From Wohlfahrtiimonas sp. G9077 (GTDB taxonomy: Bacteria > Pseudomonadota > Gammaproteobacteria > Cardiobacteriales > Wohlfahrtiimonadaceae): a stretch of 64,000 nt of DNA. Location: positions 62,001 through 126,000 of the forward strand of contig NZ_NEFD01000001.1 of assembly GCF_002252155.1 (NCBI RefSeq), written 5' to 3'. The position numbers and the translations under genes are program-made. Within the stretch, counting starts at the first letter, position 1. The number at the start of each line of letters is the position of its first letter. The notes under the pieces were generated by a model. That model was not told where the DNA came from. It was given only the letters and a program-made list of their open reading frames with translations, and searched no databases. Below, one piece after another: positions 45,092-48,162 of the stretch.

Positions 45092-46009
45092 TTACGATTT
45101 TTTTGACGTAAAGTCATAATCTGTCTCTTGATAGACAAAATAATTGAGCCAATTTTGGAAGAAAATGCTTGATGCACTCATCCAACGGGTTTGAATGGCC
45201 TCATTCGGATCATCGTTTTTAAAGTAGTTGCTCGGAATGGTCATCATGCCTAGGGCAGAGTCACGTTGATACTCTTTTAAGAGCGTCTCTTTACCATATT
45301 CAGGATGACCACTCATAAAGACTTGGCGCCCATTTTTTGAGGCCACTAAATGAATGCCAGAGACTTCAGAGCTGGCAATCACTTCCAATTCAGGATGATT
45401 GCGCGTGGCAATCGGGTCGCTCTCTGTATTGCGTGATTGAGGCACATAAAATAGATCATCGATGCCGATGAGCAGTTTTGAGTCCGGCTTTTCTTTGATG
45501 TGTTCAAAGACACCCGTTAATTTTTCTTTAAAGATGTTTTTCTCAATGTCATAAAAATACTTCAAAGCCGCTTGGCTGCCCCAACAGATAAAGAGGGAAG
45601 CAAAGACATGGGTTTTACTCCATTCAAAGATCTTGGTCAATTCATCCCAATACGTCACTTCTTTAAAATCTAAGAGCTCAATGGGAGCGCCTGTGATGAT
45701 CATGCCATCGAAATATTCATCTTCAATGTCGCTGAAAAATCGGTAAAACTCATCTAAATGCACTTGCTTGGTGTTTTTTGAAGTGTGGTTTTCGATGGCA
45801 AGCAGTGTGATGTCCACTTGTAAAATACCGTTACTGAGTTTACTCAGCAATTGAGTTTCTGCAGTGATTTTGTCAGGCATTAAGTTCAAAATACAGATGC
45901 GCACAGGGCGAATGTCCTGCGTATTGGCGCGTTCTGGATTCATCACAAAGATGCCATGATCTTTGAGAATTTGTGAAGCGGGTAAATTTTCCGGAATAAT
46001 CACGGGCAT
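45092..46009 (-). CDS. metA: MetA-family homoserine O-acyltransferase, predicted acetyl-CoA-specific
   Basis: A 305-aa enzyme activating homoserine in methionine synthesis. Catalytic Cys142 (FICWGSQ), His235 and Glu237 (GHPEYGKE) sit at exactly the E. coli positions. The acyl-CoA selector at 111 is Glu (ITGAPIELLDF) where E. coli has Gly; Glu111 is the residue found in acetyl-CoA-using MetA such as that of Bacillus cereus, so the product is predicted to be O-acetylhomoserine. The gene has its own promoter and a ~200-nt leader with a Met-rich peptide and terminator. GGAG lies upstream of the ATG. Confidence 0.94.
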   Translation of the reverse strand: MPVIIPENLPASQILKDHGIFVMNPERANTQDIRPVRICILNLMPDKITAETQLLSKLSNGILQVDITLLAIENHTSKNTKQVHLDEFYRFFSDIEDEYFDGMIITGAPIELLDFKEVTYWDELTKIFEWSKTHVFASLFICWGSQAALKYFYDIEKNIFKEKLTGVFEHIKEKPDSKLLIGIDDLFYVPQSRNTESDPIATRNHPELEVIASSEVSGIHLVASKNGRQVFMSGHPEYGKETLLKEYQRDSALGMMTIPSNYFKNDDPNEAIQTRWMSASSIFFQNWLNYFVYQETDYDFTSKKS

Positions 46010-46033
46010 GGTTGTTCTCCTTTTATTTCATCC

Positions 46034-46064
46034 ATAAAAAAACCAGAGTGTCGTCACTCTGGTT
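46034..46064 (-). terminator. Attenuator terminator in the metA leader
   Basis: In the transcript AACCAGAGTG, loop ACGA, CACTCTGGTT then a U-run, ending about 24 nt before the metA ATG. Its left arm (AGAGTGAC) is perfectly complementary to GTCACTCT in the upstream leader segment, which gives an antiterminator. Confidence 0.85.
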
Positions 46065-46090
46065 GATCAATTTTCGGGTAAAGATGAGCG

Positions 46091-46141
46091 TTAGAGTGAC
46101 TCTACAGTAAGGTTCGAGAGCCACTCAAGTGAGTAACTCTC
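46091..46141 (-). promoter_or_regulatory. Alternative hairpins of the metA attenuator
   Basis: Three transcript segments can pair in exclusive ways. Segment 1 (GAGAGUUACUCA, from the leader stop codon) pairs with segment 2 (UGAGUGGCUCUC). Segment 2 (GAGUGGCUCU) also pairs over 10 bp, with one G-U, with segment 3 (AGAGUCACUC). Segment 3 (GUCACUCU) also pairs over 8 bp with the terminator's left arm. Confidence 0.7.
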
Positions 46142-46176
46142 TAAAGCATCATCATTAACGCGGATGGGTGGGTCAT
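46141..46176 (-). CDS. metA leader peptide (11 aa, three consecutive Met codons)
   Basis: ATG at 46176 to TAG ending at 46141 encodes MTHPSALMMML. The three consecutive ATG codons lie 2 codons before the stop, and the stop codon overlaps the first arm of the leader hairpins. Only a weak AAAG-type ribosome site is seen. The position, Met content and following terminator suggest a transcription-attenuation peptide sensing charged tRNA-Met; too short for any ORF track. Confidence 0.65.
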   Translation of the reverse strand: MTHPSALMMML

Positions 46177-46215
46177 GTTTAAGTTTACTTTAGTAACATT
46201 GTTGAACTGAAAAGT

Positions 46216-46244
46216 ATCAAACCATTTCAGATAAAAAGTGTCAA
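46216..46244 (-). promoter_or_regulatory. metA promoter
   Basis: On the minus strand a perfect -35 TTGACA (46239-46244) is followed after 17 nt by TTTGAT (46216-46221). It lies just after the hutD-like stop codon and predicts a start near 46209, giving a ~200-nt leader to metA. Confidence 0.65.
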
Positions 46245-46247
46245 GGG

Positions 46248-46811
46248 CTATTTGAGGTCAATCTCGACAATCAGGCAGGAAGCCATTGAAAATTGAGCCT
46301 TAAATATTAAGTGCATGGCATCATGATCTGAGAAAAATAGTGTATCCAAGGGTTCAAGCACTTGTCCATTGATTGAGCAGGCCGCCAGTGCAATGATGCA
46401 AGTGGTCAAAGAAGATCGCTGATATTCTTGATCAGTAAAATCCATGCGCACCATGGAATGCGCGGCCAAGCGTGTATCGGTAATGATGCCACAATCTAAA
46501 GCGGGCATTGTGCAATGGGTCATGATGGTGTTGCTGTCACCACTAAATGTGATGGGTTGCCCCGTGGGCGTTAACGTGTGCAATGCGCCATTAATAGAGA
46601 GCTCGATCGATTGACCGGTCACCAACGCTAAACTGCGCTGGCGATGCGGGAAATGAGAAAAAGGCCCTGTGTGTTCAACCGATGCCATACTCAAGCGCCA
46701 TATGAAGTCGTCCATAGATGCATGTGGTGGATGAATCATCACCTCGCGAGTGGTTCCAAGGCCATTTTTCCAAGGCTGTTCCTGAAGGTCATTAAAGGCG
46801 ATTTTTTGCAT
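46248..46811 (-). CDS. hutD: HutD/Ves family protein
   Basis: A 187-aa cupin-like protein. The HutD pattern is clear: [33 protein letters not shown] and the RSLALVTG strand. HutD members occur with histidine utilisation genes and have been proposed to limit hut expression; Ves is the E. coli relative. The start at 46811 (MQKIAFND) lies inside the end of the upstream permease gene (20-nt overlap); the longer form from 46829 would overlap more. The other hut genes are not here. Confidence 0.82.
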
Positions 46812-48162
46812 TGGGCTTGATCCATACATAGTAACAAACAGTTAACACCACAAGCCAAATGATGCCGGCATATAAGGCATTGCGAACGGGGGCATAATAA
46901 CCCAGCACACCCACCACAAAGAGCATAAAGGCAATGGCAAGGGCAGGCCCAATCGGCCAAAAGGGCACAGGGAATTTAAGGTTGGCAATTTGGGTTTTAC
47001 TCAATTGTCGACGCATGCCCACTTGGGAGATGAGGACAGTCAGCCACACCCAAACGGTGGCAAAGGTGGCCATTGCGGCAATCACCAAAAAGAGCCCATC
47101 ATGGAAAAAGTAGTTGAGCACAACGCCGATGATCATCACCATAAACATGATGGCGATCGCCACAATGGGGACGCCACTTTTAGAGAGTGTGCTCAATGCT
47201 TTGGGGGCTTGACCTTGCTCACTGAGCCCGTGCATCATGCGGCCGGCACCAAAGATGTCACTGTTGATGGCAGAGATCGCCGCCGTGATCACCACAATAT
47301 TGAGTAAATTTGCAGCATAATCAATGCCAAGGCTTTTAAAAATGGTGACAAATGGGCTGGCACCTAAGCCAATGTGATTCCACGGGAAAAGCGCCATGAG
47401 CACAAGGAGGGCTAAAAAGTAAAAGAGTAAAATTTGCACTGGCACTACATTGATGGACATCGGAATGGTTTTTTCAGGGTTTTCTGCTTCTAATGCTGTC
47501 AGCCCCAACGTTTCAACGCCACCAAAGGAGAACACCACCACTGAGAGTGAAATGATGATGCCTGTAATACCAAAAGGGGCAAAGCCATCGTGGCTCCAAA
47601 GATTGCTGAGGCTTGGGGTGAATTCAAGGGGCACATTTAAGTGCATGTGGCTCATGAGGATGTAACCACCTGCAATGATCATGGCGATGATGGAGATGAC
47701 TTTGATCAAAGAGAGCCAAAAACCAAGCTCGCCAAACATTTTAACCGCGCATAGGTTAATGCCACATAAAATTAAAGTGATGGCCAATGCCCAAATCCAT
47801 GGCGCCACATCGGGATACCATAAACCCATGTAGATGGCAAAGGCGGTGACATCTGCGATGCACACAAGCGCCATTTCAAACACATAGGTCCAACCTGTGA
47901 TGAAGCCTGCAAGGGGGCCTAAATATTTGGTGGCATATGCCCCAAAAGCGCCCGGCATTGGATGATGCATGATCATCTCGCCTAAAGCGCGCATCACCAT
48001 AAAGACGGCGATGCCAGATAAAAAATAGGCGATGAGAACGGCAGGTCCTGCCAATTCAATGGCATTTGCTGAACCATAAAATAGACCGGTGCCCACGGCA
48101 GAACCTAAGCCAATGAATAAAACGTGGCGCGGCGTCAATCCGCGCTTGAGCTGAGTCGCCAT
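46792..48162 (-). CDS. APC-family amino acid permease, probable histidine permease (HutT/ProY-like)
   Basis: A 456-aa transporter of the amino acid transporter (AAT) branch with twelve helices. The first helix region [26 protein letters not shown] (seen in two parts) and [27 protein letters not shown] are AAT signatures. [18 protein letters not shown] marks helix 6. The overlap with a hutD-like gene suggests histidine uptake; ProY-type cationic or proline uptake is the alternative. It follows the YeiH-like gene after 33 nt on the same strand. Confidence 0.83.

Follow-up and report, generated by a model that had tools for sequence, protein, structure and literature searches.

Leader-peptide attenuation is the textbook mode of control for the his, trp, leu, ilv, thr and phe genes, and the enterobacterial his attenuator, with its segments A to F, is a ribosome-mediated system of this type. 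We know of no methionine leader-peptide attenuator described to date, and the literature that we searched, with most subscription papers lying outside its scope, yielded none. Methionine control has been surveyed in about 200 proteobacterial genomes; the survey covers MetJ, MetR, SahR, SamR and riboswitches, while the terms "attenuat-" and "leader peptide" are absent from it (PMC4239095). Control of the surveyed genes lies with sensors of S-adenosylmethionine, S-adenosylhomocysteine or homocysteine. In alphaproteobacteria it is SAM-II riboswitches that precede metA, metX and metY (PMC4239095, PMC9373788). Candidate cysteine leader peptides have been reported before actinobacterial cys operons, and the same survey of actinobacterial RNA elements gives none before methionine operons (PMC1262725). 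In a broad screen for premature terminators, the passages on methionine, metA and leader peptides describe no methionine leader peptide (PMC2965389). A methionine attenuator, if true, would mean that charged Met-tRNA can serve as a direct measure of methionine supply. It would also make an attractive test case, since codon and synthetase are shared with the initiator tRNA.

We analysed a stretch of 64,000 nucleotides from Wohlfahrtiimonas (the window), in which metA is preceded by a leader with a run of Met codons. At a probability of roughly 0.88, we consider metA to be regulated by this leader through ribosome-mediated transcription attenuation, with charged elongator Met-tRNA as the signal, and metY to be regulated by a paralogous copy. 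Both controlled genes belong to methionine synthesis. The reading is built on the anatomy of the leader, its conservation at two loci and a predicted codon-specific switch.

Anatomy of the metA leader

The preliminary description of this DNA had reported a promoter (TTGACA-N17-TTTGAT), a Met-Met-Met frame, mutually exclusive hairpins and an intrinsic terminator ahead of metA, all of which were confirmed in place. The features are as follows.

46216-46244, minus strand: promoter, with the -35 box TTGACA at 46239-46244, a spacer of 17 and the -10 box TTTGAT at 46216-46221, from the sequence
near 46209, minus strand: expected transcription start
46141-46176, minus strand: leader peptide frame MTHPSALMMML* of 11 codons (46176-46141, ATG ACC CAC CCA TCC GCG TTA ATG ATG ATG CTT TAG), with homologous frames in 6/6 species
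46147-46155, minus strand: three consecutive Met control codons, ATGATGATG in 12/12 metA and metY leaders
46139-46147, minus strand: segment 0 (GCTTTAGAG; Leu codon and stop, preceded by the last base of the Met run), able to pair with 46088-46096
46131-46141, minus strand: segment 1 (GAGAGTTACTC), partner of segment 2 and paired in 12/12 leaders
46116-46126, minus strand: segment 2 (GAGTGGCTCTC), partner of segment 1 or segment 3
46088-46102, minus strand: segment 3 (GAGTCACTCTAACGC), partner of segment 2, the terminator 5' arm or segment 0
46055-46064, minus strand: segment 4, the terminator 5' arm (AACCAGAGTG)
46041-46050, minus strand: segment 5, the terminator 3' arm (CACTCTGGTT); the T run begins inside it and ends at 46036
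46016-46022, minus strand: metA ribosome site AAGGAGA, from the sequence
45092-46009, minus strand: metA, homoserine O-acyltransferase of 305 aa, with its ATG at 46009, about 25 nt past the T run

The promoter is missing from the output of a simple scanner that requires A at position 2 of the -10 box, which in metA reads TTTGAT. Just upstream lies a gene for a HutD/Ves-like protein (window 46248-46829, minus strand), which adjoins a gene for a ProY-like amino-acid permease and whose stop is only a few bases ahead of the metA promoter. The metA product is closest to the acetyl type (NCBIfam MetA_acetyl 417 bits, MetA_succinyl 389 bits, both under the curated cut-offs), and the gene is 98% identical to metA of W. 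chitiniclastica DSM 18708.

Compared with shuffled sequences the leader folds far more stably (z of -4.7 over 200 nt and -5.2 over 125 nt). The motif ATGATGATG occurs ten times in the window, counting both strands, and is followed by a stop two codons later at the metA leader only. The poor ribosome site of the leader frame, named in the preliminary description as the weak point, is real: its duplex amounts to -0.4 kcal/mol, as it does in the near-identical metA leader of W. chitiniclastica. The remaining leaders have better sites, from -1.7 to -4.2 kcal/mol, the value for one metY leader (metY_L104) being scored at an upstream start; in this leader the MNLFVIE start carries the same GGGAACAG site as metY_L75.

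Conservation of the metA and metY leaders in Wohlfahrtiimonas

Our sample consists of six Wohlfahrtiimonas species: the window genome, W. chitiniclastica DSM 18708 and four more. A Met-run leader precedes metA in 6/6 of them, with the peptides MTHPSALMMML, MNTTNLQ(L/P)MMML, MNTLTFQPMMML and MNTNQFQPMMML, and TTGACA-N17-TTTGAT or TTTTAT is equally placed in all six. When the genomes were searched for a pattern made of the Met run and segment 1, each proved to have a second site, which is a leader on the matching strand in five and the opposite strand of the same leader in the type strain of W. chitiniclastica. This second, diverged leader, like the pairing of the Met codons with segment 3 described below, had been missed in the preliminary description; it stands in front of metY in six species, with one metagenome-derived contig stopping short of the gene. 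The metY product is an O-acetylhomoserine sulfhydrylase that scores over the TIGR01326 cut-off, and the metY leader peptides read M(K/N)xLFVxEMMML or MNLFVIEMMML.

As in the attenuator family at large, the short frame repeats the codon of the amino acid that the following genes help to make (MMML*, before metA and metY, in six species). All 12 leaders carry ATGATGATG and the same segments, and CTT TAG, which gives the ending MMML-stop, is found in 11/12. Start and frame are likewise conserved, as is the stop in those 11, and differences in length come in multiples of three. The metA peptides bear no relation to those of metY in their N-terminal parts, and conservation is thus confined to the control run, the stop and the hairpin segments. 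In this sequence comparison, conservation across 12 leaders, at two loci per species in six species, lifts the Met run above chance. Methionine has a single codon, which makes a test by synonymous changes impossible for the run, and the run also belongs to a stem.

In W. chitiniclastica DSM 18708 (L064, L082) the stop TAG of the metY leader reads TGG, and the frame would run on through the hairpins into the terminator; this is possibly a natural loss-of-attenuation allele, or else a sequencing error. The contig with the metagenome-derived metY leader (L068) ends soon past the terminator in a putative mobile-element end (GGGGCTGTTGAACATTTGAATTC...), as would follow from an insertion that separates the leader from metY or from an assembly that breaks at a repeat.

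Stems and alternative pairings

The leaders were aligned in 12 rows, six from metA and six from metY. Stem 1:2 is paired in every cell of the alignment and includes one compensatory pair (C-G, U-G, U-A), and two pairs of the terminator exchange A-U for G-C among the 12 leaders. When the partners are slid by one to three columns, pairing falls from 97% to 37-48%; neither this control nor the covariation is corrected for the relatedness of the leaders. For stems 2:3 and 3:4 the paired cells amount to 96% and 98%, and the bases hardly vary, so that there is no covariation and the support comes from conservation. With two or three partners to match, bases in segments 2 and 3 are not free to vary. 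Comparison with relatives, which the preliminary description had proposed as a check, bears it out for the Met codons and for compensation in 1:2 and the terminator, while the compensatory changes expected in 2:3 and 3:4 do not appear in these nearly invariant stems. Mutually exclusive hairpins ending in an intrinsic terminator are thus present ahead of the gene.

A further pairing appears in folds without a ribosome, where the Met codons and CTTTAGAG face the 3' half of segment 3. Segment 0 and segment 3 form 9/9 pairs in eight leaders and 8/9 in two, among them the window metA leader, and two metY leaders of the W. chitiniclastica group have a Met-codon helix of ~23 bp. Over the whole set, uncorrected for relatedness, the leaders' own 0:3 arms beat permuted arms (18 of 20,000 permutations were as good); taken singly, several metA leaders pair no better with their own arm than with those of others.

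Predicted effect of ribosome position

In the mechanism that we infer, the leader is translated, transcription actually ends at the terminator, and the outcome responds to methionine. Transcription would begin near 46209 and a ribosome would start on the leader frame. When Met-tRNA is scarce, the ribosome would pause while the first or second ATG of the run occupies the A site and would cover the Met codons (segment 0), leaving segment 1 free to form 1:2; segment 3, free in its turn, would trap the terminator 5' arm, and metA would be transcribed. When Met-tRNA is plentiful, the ribosome would reach the TAG and cover segment 1 to its last base, whereupon 2:3 would form and the terminator would fold.

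To follow these states, the nascent leader was folded as far as the terminator 5' arm for all 12 leaders, with a ribosome footprint of +13 to +16 moved codon by codon; such folding is at equilibrium and excludes kinetics and the terminator 3' arm. The mean probability of the antiterminator (3:4) depends on the codon in the A site: it is 0.85-0.86 for the first Met codon, 0.51-0.86 for the second and 0.07-0.53 for the third, footprints of +15 or +16 giving only partial antitermination at the second and little at the third. It drops to 0.04-0.08 at the Leu codon and 0.04-0.05 at the stop, where a ribosome with a +16 footprint reaches the last base of segment 1. In most leaders a ribosome waiting at codons ahead of the Met run likewise favours the antiterminator. 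The switch logic of the preliminary description is thus reproduced: stalling at the first Met codons is predicted to turn the genes on, stalling at the Leu codon is not, and arrival at the stop is predicted to turn them off. Selection between antiterminator and terminator by ribosome position, a further mark of the attenuator family, is here a calculated result.

Without a ribosome the antiterminator is near zero in all metY leaders, and ranges from 0 to 0.98 in metA leaders (window 0.98). The pairing that hides the Met codons on segment 3 is accordingly modelled as terminating, and keeping metY off, when translation fails; the window metA leader is predicted to read through.

Other regulators and rival explanations

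A metabolite riboswitch (for S-adenosylmethionine, S-adenosylhomocysteine or methionine) coupled to the intrinsic terminator, in which the ATG run would be an untranslated part of a stem, could account for the pairing of the Met run with the 3' side of segment 3, strong as it is in two metY leaders, and for the weak ribosome site of the window frame. An aptamer, however, needs a conserved unpaired core, and here the conserved bases are those of pairing segments and codons, whereas loops and linkers vary. The retained start codon, frame and stop, together with length changes in steps of three, also speak against a riboswitch, as does a geometry that suits a ribosome at the Met and stop codons. 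No Rfam family matched in the metA region (E up to 1) or at the metA and metY loci (gathering score), T-box included, and a SAM-II search of the genomes returned nothing over its cut-off. We hold a riboswitch to be improbable. A somewhat smaller chance still is given to a leader that senses a general slowing of translation, by antibiotics or by low charged-tRNA pools at large, instead of methionine. Antibiotic-resistance leaders elsewhere work in this way, msrD being an example (PMC10314930), and the antiterminator favoured by waiting at codons ahead of the run would agree with it. Against this, the Met run never changes, unlike the codons ahead of it, which vary from species to species and from metA to metY; the antiterminator is not favoured by stalling at the Leu codon, and both controlled genes are methionine genes.

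The two genes might instead be under a T-box or a repressor of the MetJ type, with the short three-ATG frame a mere coincidence. This has precedent in that proteobacterial methionine genes are generally under MetJ, MetR, SahR or riboswitches (PMC4239095); of all the explanations it is the one to which we give least credit. MetJ (PF01340) is absent from Wohlfahrtiimonas and from all 40 relatives searched, the E. coli control being positive. As a full explanation it is largely refuted by the conservation of the terminator and of the Met run, the latter at two loci in six species. A further DNA-binding regulator may act at the promoter. The attenuator reading, by comparison, is supported by a Met run and segments common to six metA and six metY leaders, and by the compensatory changes in 1:2 and the terminator.

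Distribution of the element and other leaders

A covariance model was built from the 12 leaders and used to seek further members. In each Wohlfahrtiimonas genome the strong matches are the metA and metY sites only (E about 1e-20 to 1e-23), with scores that follow by construction, since these sequences built the model. There was no strong match in 12 other genomes of the family, nor, with stricter filters, in 273 other gammaproteobacterial genomes. Weaker matches, on inspection, overlap or adjoin gene ends, in many cases of convergent genes, and have the look of ordinary terminators. No Met-run leader precedes 29 metY relatives in other gammaproteobacteria, no comparable one precedes metY or metA of the sister genera, and none lies upstream of the core-MetE operon of Wohlfahrtiimonas. 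In this genus (L124-L129) there is no full MetE match above the cut-off but instead a methionine synthase of the core-MetE type (PRK09121), whose gene lies behind one of 325 aa and, in most genomes, ahead of a flavin-reductase-like gene.

As to other amino acids, hisG of Wohlfahrtiimonas has no conserved His leader. A Leu-rich leader peptide (...LSLLRLILL*) was found ~340 nt before a leuA-like gene in at least 5 of the 6 Wohlfahrtiimonas genomes (L160-L165) by an automatic scan in which it served as positive control; being conserved, it makes leader-peptide control look normal in this genus.

The sister genera (Ignatzschineria-like, groups g4 and g3) have metY and metA in tandem. Their metY is preceded, about 70-170 nt before the start and once per genome in 11 genomes (L070-L080; e.g. 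L079:3578-3682, plus strand), by another conserved element. Its stem arms vary yet stay complementary (CTAAGT/ACTTAG, TGAGT/ACTCA, TCAGT/ACTGA, GAAGT/ACTTC), and an invariant loop CTAATTTTTTGG has its complement in CCAATAAAATTTAG, likewise invariant, which overlaps the ribosome site. Such an arrangement is likely a pseudoknot of SAM-II-like layout and makes the element, which has no Rfam match, a candidate riboswitch. For metY the sister genera thus seem to rely on an RNA element of quite another kind, and the family could show one RNA control replacing another.

Comparison with known systems

SAM-II in alphaproteobacteria resembles the Wohlfahrtiimonas leaders as RNA control of the same genes, but its aptamer senses S-adenosylmethionine directly and the mechanism described involves no Met-run leader peptide. 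The actinobacterial cys leaders share a run of sulphur-amino-acid codons near the stop, and differ in having no obvious terminator and in belonging to another phylum and another amino acid. Within the genus, the leuA leader is also short and conserved and is rich in codons for the amino acid to whose synthesis the next gene belongs, but this amino acid is a different one and the distance to the gene is much larger (about 340 nt).

A close parallel is the his attenuator. In both designs, a run of control codons lies near the stop of the leader peptide; a stall gives two early hairpins that trap the terminator 5' arm, one hairpin and the terminator form once the stop is reached, and a further arm is able to pair without translation. 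Unlike the his attenuator, the leaders described here are specific for methionine, not histidine, with three control codons, and consist of five segments plus a segment 0 in which the control run ends; there is no detectable sequence relation (no Rfam match). The kind of system is a known one, and it is the amino-acid specificity that is apparently new. It is probably the first methionine-specific leader-peptide attenuator to be recognised: a metA and metY regulon in one MetJ-less genus, which would read the charging of elongator Met-tRNA, not S-adenosylmethionine, and whose control codons double as an arm of the fold that permits the terminator.
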